Positions 1,286-46,483 of a stretch of 46,664 nucleotides of DNA are shown here, one piece after another. Under the pieces are notes generated by a model. That model made no database searches, was not told the DNA's origin, and saw only the letters and a program-made list of their open reading frames with translations. The stretch's first letter is position 1; every line of letters begins with the position of its first letter. The translations under genes and the position numbers were made by a program. Source of the stretch: a virus; the IMG/VR virus record IMGVR_UViG_3300048597_000671, positions 1 to 46,664 of that record; one strand, 5' to 3'.

Positions 1286-1980
1286 GGGATGGCAAGGTCC
1301 TGTATGTGATCGCCTGCGGCAATGGTGTCGATATTCCCACGGTGGACCGCGAAAGTCAGCGCGACGACCCAGGGGTTCGCGTCCCACGCGCCGTCGCCGT
1401 TGATCTGGTCCCAAAGCTCCGCATACCCGGCGAGGTAACTGCCGAATTCGATAGGGCTGCTGTTCTCCGTGACCTGCCCGGTTTCGACGCCGACCTGCTG
1501 CACACCCTCTGCCTTGGCGTCGTCTTCGCTACAGTTCTGCAACCGCTGCACCCGCACGTCCGTCACGGCAAGCGTCAGGCGAGAAGCCCATCGCGGCATA
1601 TGGATCGAGGGCTTCCACTTCGGAATAGAGCGGTCCCACCCGGCAGCGTAGATCGCCGCCTGGCTTCCGTCCGATGGGTTGACGGCCTGCGTCACGCCAT
1701 CGGACATACGATAGGCGGACGATGGGACGAGCGCGAAGTTCTCCCTCACCCAAAGCCGGTCGCCAACCTGCCAGCGCGCATAGTCGGGGCCGATTCCTTC
1801 CACCTCGGCTTCGCTGCCAGCAAATACGCCGCCGCCGGCATTGCGCACATGCCACATCTCGGTCGGCGTCAATTCCGGCTGCGGCTTCATGATCCGCCGC
1901 GTCTGCGTCTTGGTGCCCGCCAGCAGTGCGCGCACCATCGGGGCAGAGAAGATGATCGGAAGCACCCGGCCTTCGGTCAT
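1282..1980 (-). CDS. ASCH-domain phage protein
   Basis: 232-aa protein with an ASCH-type N-terminus (residues ~8-30, including a GTKTQTRR motif) and the downstream KPSIHMPRWASR element typical of phage ASCH proteins. ASCH domains have a PUA-like barrel and are thought to bind RNA or modified nucleotides; some members are nucleoside amidohydrolases. The exact substrate here is unknown. The ATG at 1980 overlaps the stop of the DUF5131 gene (ATGA), so the two are probably translated together, and the DUF5131-ASCH neighbourhood suggests a shared job in nucleic acid modification or surveillance. An upstream extension to 2190 is open but is only the antisense frame of the neighbour. Confidence 0.8.
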   Translation of the reverse strand: MTEGRVLPIIFSAPMVRALLAGTKTQTRRIMKPQPELTPTEMWHVRNAGGGVFAGSEAEVEGIGPDYARWQVGDRLWVRENFALVPSSAYRMSDGVTQAVNPSDGSQAAIYAAGWDRSIPKWKPSIHMPRWASRLTLAVTDVRVQRLQNCSEDDAKAEGVQQVGVETGQVTENSSPIEFGSYLAGYAELWDQINGDGAWDANPWVVALTFAVHRGNIDTIAAGDHIQDLAIP

Positions 1981-2816
1981 GGCGTCGGCCTCGCGTCGTG
2001 GGTCACGCCGTCGAGCGTGCGGCCGGTCATTCCTTTTCCCCAGCGACCCACTCTTTCGCCGTCCTCGAAAGTGTGGACATGGCGCAAGACCCCGAGAGTC
2101 TCTGGCGTGCCGGGCGCCCACTCGCCCCATTGCTTGAAGAGGAACGGTACGTCTGCGGCCGCACACTGGTCGCGGAGCGCCCGCGCCCAATCCTGATGCA
2201 TCGGCCGAGCCTTCCCGCCGCTCTCGCCGCCGCAGATCACCCAGCCGATTCCGCCGTCGCGCAGCCAGGGCGTCAGGTCGATCGGCCCGAGCATCGGCTC
2301 GATCGACAGGAAGGTGAAGGGCGGGAAATACTTCGCGGCGCCCGCCAGCAGGTGCGGTATATCGCGGTCCGCCTCCGCCTGGTTGACGACGGTGCAGCCC
2401 ATGGCGGCATTGCGCGGCCAGTCGCTCCCGTAGGTGGGCCCGCGGCGCAGGATGTTTTGCGGGCGCTTCGTGAGCGGCAGCCAGATCAGGTTCGGGGTCT
2501 CGCGCATCACCTGCAGCGCATCGGCACGCATTGCGCCGACCTCGGGCCGGTTATCCCAGAAGTCCGAGAGGCTGTTCGTGAAGACGAAATCGAGCCGTCC
2601 GGCAGCCTTGGCCGCGGCGTCCAGCTTGTAGGGCAGCCGCCACGTCGCCGGGGCCGTCCGCCGGCGCGTCTCGCCTATGCCCCACGCCACATGCCCGCTG
2701 CGCTTCGCCCAGCCCTCGGCGTAGCAGTGGTCGCACCCGGGCCCGACCTTCGCGCAGCCAGTCCAGAAATTGACCGTGTGATCGGCCCATTCGATCTTCG
2801 TGTCGGCGCCCATCAT
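1977..2816 (-). CDS. DUF5131 (phage Gp37/Gp68 family) protein
   Basis: 279-aa member of the phage Gp37/Gp68 family, which is related to radical SAM enzymes. An N-terminal cysteine cluster Cys21-x6-Cys28-x2-Cys31 (ending CDHCYAE) could hold an iron-sulphur cluster. Conserved-looking segments follow: FTNSLSDFW, WLPLTKRP, LSIEPMLGPI and the GGESGGKARP stretch near residue 195. The reaction is not known for the family. It lies between a 40-residue membrane peptide gene (TGA/ATG overlap at 2813-2816) and an ASCH gene. Two consecutive ATG codons start the frame; the second is equally possible. Family assignment is strong, function open. Confidence 0.88.
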   Translation of the reverse strand: MMGADTKIEWADHTVNFWTGCAKVGPGCDHCYAEGWAKRSGHVAWGIGETRRRTAPATWRLPYKLDAAAKAAGRLDFVFTNSLSDFWDNRPEVGAMRADALQVMRETPNLIWLPLTKRPQNILRRGPTYGSDWPRNAAMGCTVVNQAEADRDIPHLLAGAAKYFPPFTFLSIEPMLGPIDLTPWLRDGGIGWVICGGESGGKARPMHQDWARALRDQCAAADVPFLFKQWGEWAPGTPETLGVLRHVHTFEDGERVGRWGKGMTGRTLDGVTHDARPTP

Positions 2817-8652: not shown

Positions 8653-8838
8653 ATGGACATCGAGACGCACCTGCTGATGCTGTCGATCTGGCTGCTGGTT
8701 CAGTCGCTCTTGCTGATGTTCTTCAGCGTCATGCTTCTGCTCATCGTGATCGCGAACGGGCTGATAGTGGGGTCCATCCGCAAGAAGCTGACCTTCAGGC
8801 GGACCTCGCCTTCGACGGCCGATATCGAAAACAAATAG
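8653..8838 (+). CDS. Possible small membrane protein (alternative to the opposite strand)
   Basis: 61-residue frame with a very hydrophobic stretch (about residues 7-40) and a basic C-terminus. A purine-rich GAGAGAAG precedes its ATG and it lies in the expected PR transcript behind cro. However, most of it is antisense to the C-terminal coding part of the 8700-9170 leftward gene, and hydrophobicity may be a by-product of that. At most one of the two is likely to matter; I rank the leftward gene higher. Confidence 0.25.
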   Translation: MDIETHLLMLSIWLLVQSLLLMFFSVMLLLIVIANGLIVGSIRKKLTFRRTSPSTADIENK

Positions 8839-9170
8839 TGCTTCTCGGTCCCCGGATCGATCGCCCATCCGGCTTTGATCAGTCGCGCATCGGCCGGCAG
8901 CGGCACGCTGTTCCCGTGGCCATCGCCCTTGAACTTGTCGCCGATCAAAAGGCCCCTCGGGCGCATGGCGTGGATCGCGGTCAGTTCGATCGCTACGTCC
9001 TCGCCGTTCCGAACCTTGAGACGCGCGAGCCCGTCCTGTGTGACGGGCAACGTCAGCTCGACATAGACCTTCCGGGCTTGGCTCACGCGGTAGAGCAGCA
9101 CGGCGATGTAGGCCGTGAGGCCGCTGGCGAGAACACCTGCAAGGCCGATCAGCAGGTTGGCGATTTCCAT
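8700..9170 (-). CDS. Membrane-anchored beta-rich protein of unknown function
   Basis: 156-aa protein: an N-terminal transmembrane helix (about residues 5-28), a basic RVSQARK border, then a ~120-residue domain with alternating beta-strand pattern ending in SRSMTLKNISKSD. It runs leftward inside an otherwise rightward early arm, so it is likely an independently expressed cargo gene. A GGAG lies directly before the ATG, which is tight. Residue composition and domain layout look natural, unlike the long rightward frame on the opposite strand. No family recognised; a role in exclusion or in modifying the envelope is speculative. Confidence 0.6.
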   Translation of the reverse strand: MEIANLLIGLAGVLASGLTAYIAVLLYRVSQARKVYVELTLPVTQDGLARLKVRNGEDVAIELTAIHAMRPRGLLIGDKFKGDGHGNSVPLPADARLIKAGWAIDPGTEKHYLFSISAVEGEVRLKVSFLRMDPTISPFAITMSRSMTLKNISKSD

Positions 9171-20728: not shown

Positions 20729-22696
20729 ATGTTGTCGTGGATCAACGATAAGCTGCAGAGCCTCGTCGAAGGGTTCAGCTGGGGCACCGGTAAGACGTCG
20801 TCGATCGGGCATGTGTTCGTGCCGTTGACGCAGCCGGAACTCATTGCCGCATACCGCGGCGACTGGCTGAGCCGCAAAGTGGTCGACGTGCCGGCCTTCG
20901 ACATGGTGCGCGAGGGGCGCGCCTGGCAGGCCGCTGACGATCAGATCGAGAAGCTCGAGGCCGGCGAGGAGCGTGTCGGCCTCCAGCAGAAGATCGGTGC
21001 CGCCCTCAAACGCGCGCGGCTCTATGGCGGCGCAGTTATCGTTATCGGCGTCGATGACGGGCAGGATCCCAGCCAGCCGCTGGCGCTTGATCGGGTGCAG
21101 GGCGGCGGTCTCAAATATCTCGCGGTGCTGAACCGGTACGAGGTCACGCCCGGCCAGATCATCCGCGATGTTGCCTCACCATATTTCGGGGAGCCCGAAG
21201 TCTACACGCTGCACGGCGGCCAGGTCGGGGCCTCATTTGTGAGGATCCACCCCTCGCGGGTGGTCCGCTTCATCGGCGCCGAGGTGCCCGACCAGTTGCT
21301 GACTGGCGAGGTATGGGGGGATTCGGTCCTCCAGGCGGTTGGCGATGCGCTGACGAACGCGACGCTCTCCGCAGACGGTATCGCGAACCTGATCACCGAG
21401 GCCAAGCTCGACGTCTATAAAATCAAGGGCTTCATGAACAACGTGTCGAATGCCGAGTATCGCTCGCGCATGCTGACCAGGTTCCGCCTGGCGAACACGT
21501 CGAAGTCGATGAATAACGCGCTCCTTCTCGATGCCGAGGAGGAATACGAGCAGAAGCAGATCAACTTCGCCAACCTAGACGATGTCGCACGCCTCATGCT
21601 GCAGATCGCATCGGGTGCTGCTGATATCCCTGCGACGCGGCTTCTGGGGCAGGCGCCTGCGGGACTGAACGCGACCGGCGATTCCGATGTGCGGAACTAC
21701 TACGACCGCATCGCCAGCGACCAGGAAATCAGCCTGCGCCCCGCCTACAAGCGCATCGACGAAGTGTTGATCCGGTCCGAGCTGGGCAATCGTCCGCCGG
21801 AAATCCATTTCACGTTCAACCCGCTCTGGCAGCTCAGCGAGACCGAACGCAGCGAAAACCGGAAGCGGGACGCCGAGAGCGACAAAATCTACGCGGAGAC
21901 GTCGTTGGTTCCGGCAGACGCGCTGGCGACTGCGGTGCAGAACAAGCTGGTCGAGGCCGGAACCTACCCGGGCCTCGAAGCCGCGCTTGCCAAGGACGAG
22001 GCTGTCACGCGCGGGCTTTCGAACGAAACCGTGAAGACCATGCTCGCGGCGAAGCAGGGCGGCGTTATGCGGCTCGAAGACATCTTCGCGCAGCTCAGTG
22101 CGGGGGGCTGGGTCGCCCCGGGCGTCACCTTCGAAAAGTGGCGCGACGACCTCGAAATCGAGGGCAGCGTTGACGACCCGAACGAAGACGGCGATATCGA
22201 CCCCATCACCGGCGAGCCGCTTCCGCCGAAGCCCGACGCCAAGGCGATCGCCGACGCGGCGCCCCGAACGCTCTATGTGAGCCGCCCGGTGCTGAACGTC
22301 GCCGAGATCGCCGCATGGGCCATAGGGCAGGGCATCGAAGACCTCGCCGACGATCTGCACGTCACGATCGCGTACTCGCGGGTCTCGCTCGACTGGATCA
22401 AGGCGGGGAACGCGACCGAATGGGGCGAGGCCGACGGCAAGCTGACCATTCCGGCCGGCGGGCCGCGCTTGGTCGAGCCCCTGGGCAATATGGGTGCGGT
22501 GCTGCTGTTCGCCTCCTCGACGCTCTGCTGGCGCCACGAAGAAATCATGCGGGCAGGGGCTTCTCACGACTGGTCGGAGTACCAGCCGCACATTTCGCTG
22601 ACGAAGACGGCGATCGAAGTTTCGAAGGTAGAGCCGTACCGCGGCAAGATTGTCCTCGGGCCGGAGCGGTTTGAGGAAGTCGATCCCGCCCGCTGA
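20729..22696 (+). CDS. Portal protein fused to an Acb1-like (anti-CBASS) 2H phosphoesterase domain
   Basis: 655-aa protein. Residues ~1-450 are a DUF1073-type portal (WGTGKTSSIGHVFVPLTQPELIAAYR-like start, RLYGGAVIVIGVDDG, AGLNATGDSDVRNYYDRI). Residues ~515-655 form a separate domain starting LYVSRPV with the two HxT/S motifs of 2H phosphoesterases: His544-Val-Thr546 (LHVTIAYS) and His621-Ile-Ser623 (QPHISLT). This arrangement and length match T4 Acb1, which cleaves the cyclic nucleotides of CBASS defence. A linker rich in Asp/Pro lies between. The first ATG follows terminase by 6 bases. The portal role is certain; the enzymatic role is by motif. Confidence 0.9.
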   Translation: MLSWINDKLQSLVEGFSWGTGKTSSIGHVFVPLTQPELIAAYRGDWLSRKVVDVPAFDMVREGRAWQAADDQIEKLEAGEERVGLQQKIGAALKRARLYGGAVIVIGVDDGQDPSQPLALDRVQGGGLKYLAVLNRYEVTPGQIIRDVASPYFGEPEVYTLHGGQVGASFVRIHPSRVVRFIGAEVPDQLLTGEVWGDSVLQAVGDALTNATLSADGIANLITEAKLDVYKIKGFMNNVSNAEYRSRMLTRFRLANTSKSMNNALLLDAEEEYEQKQINFANLDDVARLMLQIASGAADIPATRLLGQAPAGLNATGDSDVRNYYDRIASDQEISLRPAYKRIDEVLIRSELGNRPPEIHFTFNPLWQLSETERSENRKRDAESDKIYAETSLVPADALATAVQNKLVEAGTYPGLEAALAKDEAVTRGLSNETVKTMLAAKQGGVMRLEDIFAQLSAGGWVAPGVTFEKWRDDLEIEGSVDDPNEDGDIDPITGEPLPPKPDAKAIADAAPRTLYVSRPVLNVAEIAAWAIGQGIEDLADDLHVTIAYSRVSLDWIKAGNATEWGEADGKLTIPAGGPRLVEPLGNMGAVLLFASSTLCWRHEEIMRAGASHDWSEYQPHISLTKTAIEVSKVEPYRGKIVLGPERFEEVDPAR

Positions 22697-41421: not shown

Positions 41422-41514
41422 ATGGACCCGATGGAACTGGCGGGGCTCTGCCTTGCCGTCGCCGTGGCCGCGATCATCGGCCTCCTTCCTCTCATCATCT
41501 GGAGAAGCAAATGA
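41422..41514 (+). CDS. 30-residue membrane peptide at the start of the lysis cassette
   Basis: MDPMELAG followed by a hydrophobic helix (about 8-27) and RSK at the end. GGAG precedes the ATG by 8 bases, and its TGA overlaps the endolysin ATG (41511-41514). Small single-helix peptides before endolysin can act as holins or antiholins; the role is inference. Confidence 0.65.
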   Translation: MDPMELAGLCLAVAVAAIIGLLPLIIWRSK

Positions 41515-42107
41515 ACCGACAGGCATTTTATGATGCCGTGCGGCCGCTGTTCGGCGGGGCGCTGAAGCAAAGCCAGGTCGACGGGCTGCGCGTCATCCTG
41601 GACGAATGGGAATCGCGGCCGGCGAACGACGCGCGGTGGCTGGCCTACATGCTGGCGACGACGCAGCATGAGACCGCCAGTACGATGCAGCCGATCAAGG
41701 AATACGGCGGCGACGCCTACTTCCATGACCGGTACGATCCCAAGGGCAAGCGGCCCGACATCGCCAAGGCGCTGGGCAACACCCAGCCCGGCGACGGTGT
41801 GCTCTTTTGCGGGAGGGGATTTATTCAGATCACGGGGCGCCGCAACTACGCCCTGCTGGCGGCCAAGACGGGCGAGGACCTGATCGGCAATCCCTCGATC
41901 GCGCTGCGCCCTACAATCGCTGTGCGCGCCCTCTTCGATGGGATGTCGGAGGGGTGGTTCACGGGCCGCAAGCTGGCCGATTACTTCGACAGCGACACCG
42001 AGGACTGGCGCAACGCCCGGCGGATCATCAACGGGCTCGACAAGGCCGACGATATTGCCCGGCTGGCACAGTCCTATCGCGCCGCGCTGCGCAAGGCGGG
42101 GGTGTGA
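41511..42107 (+). CDS. GH19 endolysin
   Basis: 198-aa glycoside hydrolase family 19 muramidase/chitinase-like enzyme. Catalytic glutamates are Glu54 in TQHETAS and Glu64 in IKEYGG, followed by FCGRGFIQITGRRNY and a helical C-terminal half. It has no signal peptide, so it depends on a holin for release. Coupled by ATGA to the 30-residue peptide. Confidence 0.93.
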   Translation: MNRQAFYDAVRPLFGGALKQSQVDGLRVILDEWESRPANDARWLAYMLATTQHETASTMQPIKEYGGDAYFHDRYDPKGKRPDIAKALGNTQPGDGVLFCGRGFIQITGRRNYALLAAKTGEDLIGNPSIALRPTIAVRALFDGMSEGWFTGRKLADYFDSDTEDWRNARRIINGLDKADDIARLAQSYRAALRKAGV

Positions 42108-42605: not shown

Positions 42606-42715
42606 GGTGGACGGGTGCGTCGCTGCGGCGGCTGGCGGCAGCGCTGGTGAGCTTACTGGCCATCCTGACCGCGGTCGGAATCGCCACTGCGCTGATCCTG
42701 GGTGCGGTACTATGA
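42599..42715 (+). CDS. 38-residue single-pass membrane peptide
   Basis: Basic N-terminus (MVRWTGASLRRL) and one hydrophobic helix (about 13-37). It overlaps the end of the previous gene by 7 bases and its stop overlaps the spanin ATG. The GTG codon next to the ATG gives an alternative start at 42602. Membrane role in lysis likely, details open. Confidence 0.55.
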   Translation: MVRWTGASLRRLAAALVSLLAILTAVGIATALILGAVL

Positions 42716-43098
42716 CCGCGGCGCTTGCCTTCCTGACCTCGCCGATCGGCCGCTGGGTCGCCGGTGGGCTGGCTGTGGTGGTGCTGGCGCTCGGCCTGTG
42801 GCGCTGGGACGCGGCGCGGATCGCCCGGCATGAGGAAGCCGCCACGCTCGCCTGCAACGCCGCCCACGCGGCAGCGGGCGCCAAAGCCGAGGCGGGGGCC
42901 CGCGCCCGCATTCGGGCCAGCGAGGAGGACGCCTATCGCAAGGGCGTGGCCGATGCGCAGGGCAGGGCGGCCGACACCGCCGCACGCGAGACTGAAACCG
43001 AAACCGTCATCAAGGAGGTGATGCGCAATGTCCCTGCGACGTGCGTCTATGACGCTGCTGCTGCTGAGCGCCTTAACAGCCTGCGCCGCGACCCCTGA
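42712..43098 (+). CDS. Inner-membrane spanin (Rz-like)
   Basis: 128-aa protein with one N-terminal transmembrane helix (about 12-30) and a long helical, Ala/Glu/Arg-rich periplasmic part (about 33-110). The outer-membrane partner gene starts inside its 3' end in another frame, the classical Rz/Rz1 arrangement. It would disrupt the outer membrane after the cell wall is cut. Confidence 0.85.
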   Translation: MTAALAFLTSPIGRWVAGGLAVVVLALGLWRWDAARIARHEEAATLACNAAHAAAGAKAEAGARARIRASEEDAYRKGVADAQGRAADTAARETETETVIKEVMRNVPATCVYDAAAAERLNSLRRDP

Positions 43099-43297
43099 GC
43101 CGGTGGCCGTGGTGCCGCCGGACCTGGTGCGCCCGCCCTGCCGGCCGCCGGCCGATCTGATGGTGAAGCCGGTGTTGCCGCGCGTGGGGGCCGGCGAGCC
43201 CATGGCCGAACGTGCCGCCCGCGACGGGACGTGGATGACCACGACGGCGCGGGATTTCGCCGCGCTGCAGTTCTGGATCAAGGATGCCTGCCAATGA
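43028..43297 (+). CDS. Outer-membrane spanin (Rz1-like lipoprotein)
   Basis: 89-aa lipoprotein: signal peptide with lipobox LTAC (cysteine at residue 19), then a Pro-rich mature part (PEPVAVVPPDLVRPPCRPP). It overlaps the Rz-like gene by 71 bases in the +1 frame. It is longer than lambda Rz1 but typical of alphaproteobacterial phages. Works as a complex with the inner-membrane spanin. Confidence 0.85.
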   Translation: MSLRRASMTLLLLSALTACAATPEPVAVVPPDLVRPPCRPPADLMVKPVLPRVGAGEPMAERAARDGTWMTTTARDFAALQFWIKDACQ

Positions 43298-43623
43298 CCT
43301 TCACCGAAATGCTCGAGGCGGCGATCGTCTTTGCGCCTCACATCCTGGTGGCGCTCGCCTTCGCGTTGAACGTTGCCGACGCGCTGCTGACGGATGCGAT
43401 CATCGCCCGCGGTGGGCGGGAATCGAACCCGGTCATGGCGTTCCTGATGGCCTGGCCGCTCACCCGCCCAGTGCGCTGGGCGATCAAGCTGGCGGTGGTC
43501 GTCGGCTACTGTTGGCTGGCCTGGCCGCACGCCTGGGCGCTGGCGCTGTTCTGCGCGCCGTTCGTGTGGGTCGTCTGGCACAATGCCGCCGTTCTGGCGC
43601 GGCAGATCCAACATTCTCGCTAG
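43294..43623 (+). CDS. Membrane protein behind the spanins
   Basis: 109-aa protein with three or four transmembrane helices (about 8-32, 63-78, 83-100), including the LNVADALLTDAIIARGGRESNPVM element that resembles the DUF5658 type. ATGA coupling to the Rz1 gene. Function unknown; could be part of lysis timing or host modification. Confidence 0.75.
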   Translation: MTFTEMLEAAIVFAPHILVALAFALNVADALLTDAIIARGGRESNPVMAFLMAWPLTRPVRWAIKLAVVVGYCWLAWPHAWALALFCAPFVWVVWHNAAVLARQIQHSR

Positions 43624-43651: not shown

Positions 43652-44539
43652 TCAGGGAAATGACGCAACGAACCCGTCGAAATACTGTTTGCGAACGCAG
43701 GTCTTAAGCGGCCCCCGGAGCTCCTTCACCTTGAGGGCACCTTCAGGTTCAGGATCGATGATTATCAGTTTTGCGCTCGTTTTGATCAGCGGGTCCCAGA
43801 TATGCTTGTCATGAGGGATATAGGCCGTGCCGACCACAAAAACTTCGTCGGCCGCTAACGCGGCGTTTGCGAAGTTCCGCTGCGCCATAGCGATGACTTC
43901 AGGTGTAGTGCGCGTATTCTTGCCTTTCGAGTAGATCGACATGCAAGGAGAGAAGCTGGTAGCTCGGCTCCATATTCCGCGAGCGACGCCGGGAGTTTTC
44001 ACGACGATAGGGGCGTTAATCTCGGCTTGGTTTCGTCGCCCTCCGGCGTGCTCAAAATTCTCGATGGGGATATCGGGCACAAAATGCGCCGCACCATGGG
44101 GACGATATATGAGCGGTGATTCACCGGTGTTTTCGTCGTCGTAGCGCAAGCTGCCGAAGCGGCGCATGACCGCCACGTCGAGCATCACGTCGTAGTTCAA
44201 CGTTGCATAGGTAACACGGCGGTCCGATGAGGCCACCTGATCGATGAGGATGTGATATAGATTGTTCTCGCGCGGCTGAAACGTCAGAAAATACACTGCC
44301 ATCGCCCGCATCAACTCGCTTGTTCGCTCCTCAAGGTTTTTTTGGACCCATTCAAAGCCGGGCTCGAATAGCCCGTCTCTTTTGAAAGCGACTTTGGCGA
44401 TTTCAGGTAAGTCCCGCCATACTGAGAAATGCATCTCGAGTTCCGTAAAGAGGTGGCGGCCTAAAGGCGGGGGGTAGGGGACGCATGCGCCGCTGCCAAA
44501 ACTGGCACCTGCACCGAATAAAAAAAGTGTTCTGGCCAT
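43652..44539 (-). CDS. SIR2-like domain protein, probable anti-phage cargo
   Basis: 295-aa protein of the SIR2/sirtuin-like NAD-binding kind. Visible are the N-terminal nucleotide loop GAGASFGSG (residues 9-17), the TLNYD motif (near 112-116), PHG (near 148-150, likely catalytic His) and a C-terminal Rossmann part (FVVGTAYIP and LIIIDPEPEG). SIR2 domains of bacterial defence proteins hydrolyse NAD on infection and stop the cell. It stands alone, leftward, behind the lysis cassette, and is clearly richer in A/T than its neighbours, so it is probably a horizontally gained moron. No partner (HerA, Argonaute) is next to it. Confidence 0.85.
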   Translation of the reverse strand: MARTLFLFGAGASFGSGACVPYPPPLGRHLFTELEMHFSVWRDLPEIAKVAFKRDGLFEPGFEWVQKNLEERTSELMRAMAVYFLTFQPRENNLYHILIDQVASSDRRVTYATLNYDVMLDVAVMRRFGSLRYDDENTGESPLIYRPHGAAHFVPDIPIENFEHAGGRRNQAEINAPIVVKTPGVARGIWSRATSFSPCMSIYSKGKNTRTTPEVIAMAQRNFANAALAADEVFVVGTAYIPHDKHIWDPLIKTSAKLIIIDPEPEGALKVKELRGPLKTCVRKQYFDGFVASFP

Positions 44540-44570
44540 CGGAGCGTCCTCTAATATTCCTCTAGTGTCG

Positions 44571-44608
44571 CCCCACCCGTCCGGTCCGCCGGACGGGTGG
44601 GGCTTTTT
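44571..44608 (+). terminator. Strong intrinsic terminator hairpin
   Basis: 14-bp perfect stem CCCCACCCGTCCGG/CCGGACGGGTGGGG with a TCCG loop, followed by CTTTTT. In + orientation it would stop late transcription after the SIR2-like gene; it also marks the end of the cargo block and lies 32 bases from the SIR2-like start codon. Confidence 0.88.
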
Positions 44609-44614
44609 CGCGTT

Positions 44615-44851
44615 TTAGGGGTCCTGGTCCAGTTCGTCCGCCAGCTGAGCCACGATCCGGCGCAGGGCAGGGGAAAGAGCCGGCTCCGCCATCTGGCGCA
44701 GGCCGTCCGCAATGCGCCGTAGACGGGCCGAAATCGCCTGTCCGGCGGGGTCGTCCTCCGCGCTGCAGGCCCCGACGATCTCCATCGTCAGATTGCGCAG
44801 CAACCACGTCAGGTCCTCATGGGTGAGCGTGACGGGCGTCGGGTTGGGCAT
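44615..44851 (-). CDS. Hypothetical 78-aa helical protein
   Basis: Start MPNPTPVTLTHEDLTWLLRN, then long amphipathic helices rich in Ala, Arg and Leu up to the end. Starts at 44851; an upstream extension to 44923 is open but less natural. No recognised family. It could belong to host or prophage. Confidence 0.6.
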   Translation of the reverse strand: MPNPTPVTLTHEDLTWLLRNLTMEIVGACSAEDDPAGQAISARLRRIADGLRQMAEPALSPALRRIVAQLADELDQDP

Positions 44852-44940
44852 GGGGCAGGCTAGGCCGAGCGCCGCCGGGCGCGCTAGGCCGGTCTTGGGT
44901 CTCCTCTTCCAAACTGCCGACAATTTGCTACTAGCGACGG

Positions 44941-45477
44941 ATGACCCTCATCTCCGAAGGATACCGGGACCTTAATCGGCAGCTCCACGCCGAAAACCCA
45001 AAATACGGTACCTCAGGCGCCAAGTTTGCCGAGCGGGTTCGCCTTATGGCCCTCGCGATGGGCAACCCCACCATCCTGGACTATGGCGCCGGCAAGGGGC
45101 TGCTGGCGCAGGCCCTGCCGCAGCTACGCGTCGCCGAGTACGACCCTGCCGTCCCGGGAAAGGATGCACCGCCGGTGCCTGCCGATTTGGTCGTGTGCAC
45201 CGACGTCCTGGAGCACATCGAGCCCGAGTGTCTTGGCGCAATTCTTGAAGATTTGCGGCGCCTGATGCGAGGTCGGGGGTTCTTCAACATAGCGACCCGT
45301 CCCGCTGTCAAGCATCTCGCGGATGGTCGAAACGCCCACCTGATCGTTCAACCGGCCGCCTGGTGGCGCGCGCAACTAGAGCCCCTATTCAAAATCCAGA
45401 CATGGGAGCCCGTGGGGGAGGGTGCGGTCAACTGCGAGGTGACGCCGCTCCCGATAGGGCAGCATTCAGAAGGTTGA
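44941..45477 (+). CDS. SAM-dependent methyltransferase
   Basis: 178-aa class I methyltransferase: SAM-binding LDYGAGKG (about residues 45-52), and CTDVLEHIEPE (about 82-92) as motif II/post-I region. The small substrate is unknown; the motif pattern is like those of sugar or small-molecule methyltransferases. It converges on a glycosyltransferase-like gene and overlaps its end by 50 bases, so the pair may act on surface sugars (inference). Confidence 0.85.
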   Translation: MTLISEGYRDLNRQLHAENPKYGTSGAKFAERVRLMALAMGNPTILDYGAGKGLLAQALPQLRVAEYDPAVPGKDAPPVPADLVVCTDVLEHIEPECLGAILEDLRRLMRGRGFFNIATRPAVKHLADGRNAHLIVQPAAWWRAQLEPLFKIQTWEPVGEGAVNCEVTPLPIGQHSEG

Positions 45478-46483
45478 TGGCTGTCAGTAGTGCGATGGGC
45501 TGTTCGGGCGAGGGGCGCACGAGGGTCGTCCGCGGATACCAGGCCACATCGTCTCCGAACGCCGGCCAAATGAGGTGTTCTTTCGCGTCAAGGACAACAT
45601 AGGTTAGCGCCCCCAACGCGCCTGCGAGATGCGCCGTCGTGTTGCTTATTGTGAGAATGGCATCCATGGCGGCAATCTGCGCGGCCAAACCATCGATATC
45701 GTTGAGGGCGTCGATGGCGGGATCATGGACGATGTGGGGTCCGCCCGCCGCTGCAATTGCGGCTATGTGCTCGTCAACGTCGCCATACTGCAGCGAAAAA
45801 TAGGTCGCGCCGTTTCGTTCCTTGAGCGCCGCGCCCCACACCCCCAAATCCGGTAGATCCTTGCGCTTGTTGGTGCTTGCCCAACTGATCCCGATCCAGG
45901 GCCGCGGATATTGCGCGTAACGCGTCGTGCAGCGGTCAATCGCAGCGGGGTCCGGGGCGAGCGGCCGGAAGCCATCGCGGATTTGTGGGCCGAATGCGCC
46001 GCAGTGCTGCATCAGGGTTTCCCAGCTCGCCATGCGGTCGAAAGCGCCGCGCGGGTCAGCGGGTGACTGGTCGGTCCATGTCACGCCGGGAAAGCTACGC
46101 TGCACCAGTTCGAGCAAGCGACGCTCAACAACGGCCGTTACCGCGCGGACCCGTCTCGCTGCGACAGTGGCCAAATGTGCAAGGCGGAGGACAGACCCGA
46201 TATGCCTGATCCGCTGGACGATGAGCAGGCGGTGATCGCCCCAAGTGCCGTCCCACTCGGGCAGCGTGCCAGGGACACTAAGCAGGCCACCGCGCGCCAG
46301 AAGTCGACCGGCGCGCCCGTAGGCTCGGAGGCGTTCAAGTTGCATGCCCGTTCGCAATAGCAACTGCTTATCACCAGCCAGTAGGGCATCCTCGGCCAAC
46401 TTGTCGGCAAGCGTTTCCGCTTCGGCAAAGTCCTTCCGCGTCAGAGCATTTTCCAGCTCCGTGAACTGCTCTTGGTGTTGCAT
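45428..46483 (-). CDS. GT9-like glycosyltransferase-type protein
   Basis: 351-aa protein. The N-terminal ~70 residues are helical (FTELENALTRKDFAEAETLADKLAED) with TPR-like look; the C-terminal half (about 190-340) has WIGISWASTNKRKDLPD, YFSLQYGDVDEHIA, DAILTISNTTAHLAGALG and DVAWYPRTTLVR, as in the GT9/heptosyltransferase-like domains of tetratricopeptide glycosyltransferases. Likely acts on lipopolysaccharide or another surface glycan. It could be a host gene or serotype-changing cargo; that is not decidable from this window. Confidence 0.78.
   Translation of the reverse strand: MQHQEQFTELENALTRKDFAEAETLADKLAEDALLAGDKQLLLRTGMQLERLRAYGRAGRLLARGGLLSVPGTLPEWDGTWGDHRLLIVQRIRHIGSVLRLAHLATVAARRVRAVTAVVERRLLELVQRSFPGVTWTDQSPADPRGAFDRMASWETLMQHCGAFGPQIRDGFRPLAPDPAAIDRCTTRYAQYPRPWIGISWASTNKRKDLPDLGVWGAALKERNGATYFSLQYGDVDEHIAAIAAAGGPHIVHDPAIDALNDIDGLAAQIAAMDAILTISNTTAHLAGALGALTYVVLDAKEHLIWPAFGDDVAWYPRTTLVRPSPEQPIALLTAINLLNAALSGAASPRS

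Follow-up and report, generated by a model that had tools for sequence, protein, structure and literature searches.

A stand-alone SIR2-like gene behind the lysis genes of a temperate phage, probably a one-gene defence cargo of the NADase type

To our knowledge, the well-characterised SIR2 anti-phage effectors are tied either to a sensor domain or to a partner protein. In the case of DSR2, the NADase activity is killed by the double mutation N133A/H171A, and the SIR2 domain alone (303 aa) is monomeric, does not bind the phage trigger and does not cleave NAD even in the presence of the trigger (PMC10973363). KomC, the SIR2 NADase effector of the Kongming system, is turned on by KomB with dITP (PMC12948488). 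AbiH (PF14253) of lactic acid bacteria is a single-gene abortive-infection system with an enzyme of the SIR2 superfamily, and its mechanism is listed as unknown (PMC3506569, PMC12322248). In terms of the genomic sites of such genes, the interval between gpQ and gpA of P2, which contains old and tin in P2 itself, is an experimentally shown reservoir of anti-phage systems (PMC9122126). Tha, a defence gene in prophages of Staphylococcus, is antisense to lytic transcription, and this layout in phage 80alpha helps turn off the Tha defence during induction, thereby preventing autoimmunity (PMC11087260). Phage sirtuins linked to HerA, to macro domains and to RNA repair have been described in a survey of viral NAD systems; in the portion of this survey drawn on here, no stand-alone cargo clade like the family described below appears (PMC9503650).

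The DNA that we analysed, 46,664 nucleotides in length and called the window hereafter, is an entire virus record of IMG/VR (IMGVR_UViG_3300048597_000671) and begins at an integrase. Given its terminase, integrase, S24 repressor and Phage_portal_3 portal, the window is a temperate phage. The best-matched tail protein resembles tail proteins of Paracoccus, Rhizobium and Sinorhizobium phages, and the host is thus likely to be alphaproteobacterial. An Acb1-like domain in the portal had been pointed out in a preliminary description made from the letters of this DNA, and Pfam Acb1 does match the C-terminal residues 513-652 (4e-28); the portal hence combines a structural protein with an anti-defence (anti-CBASS) enzyme. 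The integrase-side region also encodes a DUF5131 protein (1977-2816, minus strand; Pfam 8e-70). Near the right end is a gene pair, in which the first member (44941-45477) encodes a methyltransferase (phrog_24759, 7e-24) and the second (45428-46483) a 351-aa protein that matches phrog_36377 (2e-13). Homology to a sister phage (L038) stops just before this pair, and the right end may be further variable cargo.

According to the preliminary description, a gene for a 295-aa SIR2-like protein with an A/T-richer composition lies leftward behind the late genes. The minus-strand reading frame was confirmed, with GAGASFGSG at residues 9-17, TLNYD at 113-117 and PHG at 147-149, while each of the remaining five frames in this stretch is interrupted by 10-16 stops. 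The composition was also as described: the GC content is 54.7% and GC3 is 63%, compared with ~64-68% and 80-86%, respectively, in the terminase, portal, integrase and endolysin genes. A promoter scan recognised no promoter of the gene. As to its position, the gene is convergent to the late and lysis genes (Table 1), but its nearest neighbour is the gene for a DUF5658 membrane protein and not the spanin genes. This membrane protein is conserved in the sister phages and possibly has a holin-like or accessory role in lysis.

Table 1. Positions of the SIR2-like gene, its flanking features and the portal gene in the window
Feature	Positions	Strand	Details
Portal with C-terminal Acb1 anti-CBASS domain	20729-22696		Phage_portal_3, 1e-111
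Endolysin (GH19-like)	41511-42107	+	PHROG match 1e-44
Rz/Rz1-like overlapping spanin genes	42607-43297	+	
DUF5658 membrane protein, ending the lysis region and flanking the insertion on the left	43297-43623	+	85-92% identical in L038 and L124
Inserted cargo segment	43624-44569	.	DUF5658 stop to terminator: 946 bases in the window vs ~42 bases in L038
Stand-alone SIR2-like gene, 295 aa	43652-44539	-	ATG start; GAGAS 9-13, PPLG 24-27, NYD 115-117, HG 148-149, DxHIW 244-248
AGAGGA-type ribosome-binding-like leader of the SIR2-like gene	44545-44560	-	~8 bases upstream of the ATG
Strong rightward intrinsic terminator, ending the late/lysis transcript	44570-44603	+	15-bp stem, then TTTTT
Small core phage gene, 77 aa	44615-44848	-	96-97% identical in L038

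The comparison with the sister phages revealed how the gene is placed. Positions 43353-43571 and 44569-44865 of the window align to 8806-9024 and 9119-9404 of L038, respectively, and the gap between these matching flanks is 997 bases in the window and only 94 in L038; the difference between the two phages at this site is, therefore, essentially the SIR2-like gene alone. In another sister phage (L124), genes for a DNA methyltransferase and an N6-methylase of 637 aa come after the DUF5658 gene (92% identical) in place of the SIR2-like gene. Within that segment (L124:4530-7245), the first 300 residues of the N6-methylase have no Pfam match, and it is possibly a restriction-type gene. The site behind the lysis genes can thus be regarded as a cargo site, of which three states are known: empty (L038), with the SIR2-like gene (the window), and with DNA methylation genes (L124). 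Presence or absence at one site between sister phages and a deviating composition, both of which mark morons and other cargo, were found for the SIR2-like gene, and we are almost certain that it is stand-alone cargo. This agrees with the preliminary proposal of prophage cargo, which is further supported by relatives in a defence hotspot (see below). The terminator region folds with -42 kcal/mol (z -5), and the same terminator is located directly 3' of the DUF5658 gene in L038, placing the SIR2-like gene antisense inside the late transcription unit. That the 77-aa gene beyond the terminator might be an antitoxin or partner was dismissed, since L038 retains it with no SIR2-like gene at the site.

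When searched alone, the window protein gave no match in Pfam, PADLOC, PHROGs, NCBIfam, PDB or viral contigs, and its only matches in phages were insignificant ones in Synechococcus phages (E 0.5). Entry to the family was provided by a 30%-identical protein on a plasmid of Halorubrum, after which alignment-based searches yielded further members in viral contigs as well as in genomes of Proteobacteria, Acidobacteriota, Bacteroidota, Cyanobacteria and Archaea. In total, ~30 relatives were located in prophages, phages, bacteria and archaea. The alignment comprises 30 sequences, with 27 full-length relatives of 290-339 aa that contain no sensor domain; four relatives (L016, L019, L020 and L023) are frameshifted or fragmentary and were kept unrepaired but excluded from interpretation. 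GAGxS, PPLG, F52, E59, Y95, N115-Y116 and H148-G149 are invariant in all of the 30 aligned sequences, residue 117 is either D or E, and D244-x-H246-x-W248 is found in every member extending to that point. With ~30 homologues of similar length having 18 invariant columns in common, the reading frame is beyond chance. The branch of the window member is long (2.12 changes per column), but every catalytic residue is retained.

Pfam SIR2_2 was matched by 25 of the 30 members (E<=1; best 1e-8), and a PADLOC SIR2 model by 17 (9e-9 at best among the SIR2 models). There is hence hardly any doubt that the product is a genuine, divergent SIR2-like enzyme, and the initial assignment is upheld by the NAD-site motifs (GAGxS, N-x-D and HG) as well as by the Rossmann SIR2 fold of the predicted structure. 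Beyond the starting genomes, only two additional matches were obtained in ~1,050 genomes, one of which was the Halorubrum plasmid already found, and relatives were present in 4 of 5,426 E. coli genomes. The E. coli relative has the accession WP_140442209.1. Such a rare and patchy distribution is as would be the case for mobile cargo.

An AlphaFold (AF2) model of the window protein (pLDDT 92.2, pTM 0.91) consists of a Rossmann core and a helical insertion at residues 27-104, and the chain ends with the SIR2 fold. Judging from the order of the elements in this model, the insertion appears equivalent to the helical lid of DSR2 (residues 56-111); by motif, the conserved N and H of the family would correspond to N133 and H171 of DSR2. 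The comparison of structures that the preliminary description had called for was performed with Foldseek, and SIR2-HerA of E. coli was the top match (4e-8). Also, the family profile matched the SIR2 protein of a SIR2/HerA system best in PDB (1.6e-5); further SIR2 defence proteins came next, among them ThsA (0.02) and KomC (0.067). A structural match to a housekeeping deacetylase, which had been named as evidence against a defence role, was in part obtained: CobB, SIRT2 and Hst2 were found below SIR2-HerA (E ~1e-6 to 1e-5), and the TM-scores are moderate (~0.4-0.6), with housekeeping sirtuins scoring well too. The gene could accordingly be read as a housekeeping-type NAD-dependent deacetylase acquired by the phage. 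The Cys4 zinc ribbon of sirtuin deacetylases, composed of two CxxC pairs, is nonetheless absent from all 30 sequences, and the canonical deacetylase family is missing from the Pfam families listed for the members; this origin is therefore very improbable.

We then consider the neighbourhoods of the relatives. In 33 loci compared within ~6 kb, no neighbour other than the family itself was common to more than four, when the mechanical antisense reading frame inside the SIR2-like gene was set aside, and where loci had other neighbours in common, they were of a single phage type. The claim of a stand-alone gene is hence supported, and no partner of the HerA, Argonaute or TIR kind was seen at the loci examined. 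In L003, the gene immediately downstream of the relative (602 aa) was a HerA suspect but turned out to be DUF1254/DUF1214. In Synechococcus HJ21-Hayes (L022:7212-8867), genes for a HigB toxin and an HTH protein with the look of a toxin-antitoxin pair are directly upstream of the SIR2-like gene; these were rejected as partners because they are missing from the other loci. In the metagenome-assembled genome BP5.bin76 (L015:605-1743), furthermore, a small gene overlaps the start of the SIR2-like gene and has a weak match to Lar (restriction alleviation; 0.001, below the cut-off).

These neighbourhoods bear on two alternatives. The protein might be the effector half only and need an unlinked host partner or sensor, as would be consistent with the inactivity of the lone SIR2 domain of DSR2 (PMC10973363) and with the sensor partner or domain required by each of KomC, ThsA, SIR2-HerA and SIR2-pAgo. 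One fixed host partner is, however, hard to reconcile with a lone gene spread across archaea and several bacterial phyla, and we consider this possibility quite improbable. Alternatively, the same catalytic pocket might serve an anti-phage or toxin effector that transfers ADP-ribose onto protein, DNA or RNA instead of destroying NAD in bulk. The SIR2 fold also supports such a transfer, and the survey of viral NAD systems, in the portion drawn on here, argues that some phage sirtuins perform it (PMC9503650). Nonetheless, neither a macro-domain antitoxin nor an ADP-ribose-removing neighbour was found at the loci examined, and defence NADases rank high in both the sequence and structure matches; ADP-ribosyl transfer is thus unlikely.

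In the two E. coli genomes inspected, the relative is the sole non-core gene between the portal gene gpQ and the replication gene gpA of P2-like prophages, an interval in which sister phages have either a gene with a Ymh domain or one for a reverse transcriptase. Further relatives are near integrase, tail-fibre and polymerase genes, upstream of a terminase, or near an endolysin. Given that one of the latter (L031) comes after a GH19 endolysin and that the window gene also adjoins the lysis cassette, a role in the phage's own cycle such as lysis timing or NAD or RNA metabolism might be assumed; indeed, for many other phage sirtuins a link to RNA repair is given in the same portion of the survey (PMC9503650). 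The window gene nevertheless opposes the direction of the late genes and is absent from L038, and the sites of the relatives are many and unrelated (P2 gpQ-gpA, near an integrase, beside tail-fibre genes, upstream of a terminase), all of which make an own-cycle role improbable.

We thus favour the reading in which the SIR2-like gene is a one-gene, NADase-type superinfection-defence cargo (moron) of the temperate phage, which is probable when its presumed NADase activity, trigger and protection are taken together. An anti-phage function is likely, and NAD hydrolysis is probably the mechanism. In the lysogen, the SIR2-like protein would be produced with its lid (~27-104) closed over the NAD site, which is predicted to be formed by GAGAS, N115, D117 and H148 beneath the lid. 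Infection by a competing phage would open the lid, most likely by contact with a phage product, and the opened enzyme would then hydrolyse NAD+, resulting in abortion of the infection. The family may either have evolved direct sensing in the lid and loops or use a widely available partner. Because the isolated SIR2 domain of DSR2 is inactive (PMC10973363), self-sufficiency of the 295-aa protein is not to be assumed, and a partner may be needed; a sensor within the protein itself is possible but rather doubtful, and the role of trigger or partner could fall to a protein of the host or of a phage. Upon prophage induction, late transcription would cross the SIR2-like gene backwards, and dampening of its expression in the late phase is expected from its antisense position in the late operon before the terminator. 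By analogy with Tha, we propose that the gene is silenced in this way during the phage's own late phase. As a tentative extension, less likely to hold than the defence role as such, the family might represent minimal immune proteins of ~295 residues in bacteria and archaea, which use the lid or variable loops to sense the phage, need no partner for destroying NAD, and are self-silenced by an antisense position in the late operon of their own phage.

The preliminary description hence stands as regards a SIR2-like, stand-alone prophage cargo gene, while the analogue AbiH and the inactivity of the lone SIR2 domain of DSR2 had been overlooked. A bare-enzyme family, moved as a single gene between unrelated phages and present in a proven defence slot, offers a direct way of studying what keeps a lone NADase off and what turns it on, and the layout in the window is a testable case of a prophage avoiding self-killing by its own cargo. 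The family is rare and had no dedicated model until now. It has probably been overlooked in genome surveys, since the defence profile library searched here misses the window protein and the relatives match general SIR2 models only.

Among the known systems, DSR1 and DSR2 are similar to the window protein in being single proteins with a SIR2 NADase site containing N and H and with a helical lid, as predicted for the window protein from its sequence and model; DSR2, however, has 1005 residues, including a large sensor at the C-terminus, whereas the window protein corresponds to the SIR2 part only. SIR2-HerA (Nezha/GAO_19) gives the best profile match to a solved structure and the best Foldseek match, but the window family is without a HerA gene nearby at the loci examined, and its protein is shorter. 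KomC is also a small SIR2 NADase effector (264 aa in PDB) with a weak profile match; the three neighbours of the window gene have no PADLOC match and no partner is conserved, where the KomA and KomB profiles were applied to a part of the loci. The APAZ region and short pAgo partner of SIR2-pAgo (SPARSA) are absent, with no extra domain or conserved partner in their place, as are the C-terminal SLOG domain and the ThsB TIR gene of Thoeris ThsA and the adjacent macro-domain gene of sirtuin-macro toxin-antitoxin systems. Regarding the genomic position, the E. coli relatives are in exactly the place of the P2 gpQ-gpA cargo (old/tin, retrons and others), while the window gene has its own site behind the lysis cassette; Tha is likewise a prophage defence gene antisense to lytic transcription (PMC11087260), but Tha is an RNase of the HEPN type accompanied by a gene for a dedicated inhibitor, and no inhibitor was found for the window gene. 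PF14253 of AbiH was weakly matched by 3 of the 30 members (best 0.0012) and not by the window protein. Since it has none of the features that define DSR, SIR2-HerA, SIR2-pAgo, Thoeris and sirtuin-macro systems, the window gene would represent a new form of SIR2 defence effector, to which AbiH is the nearest kind.
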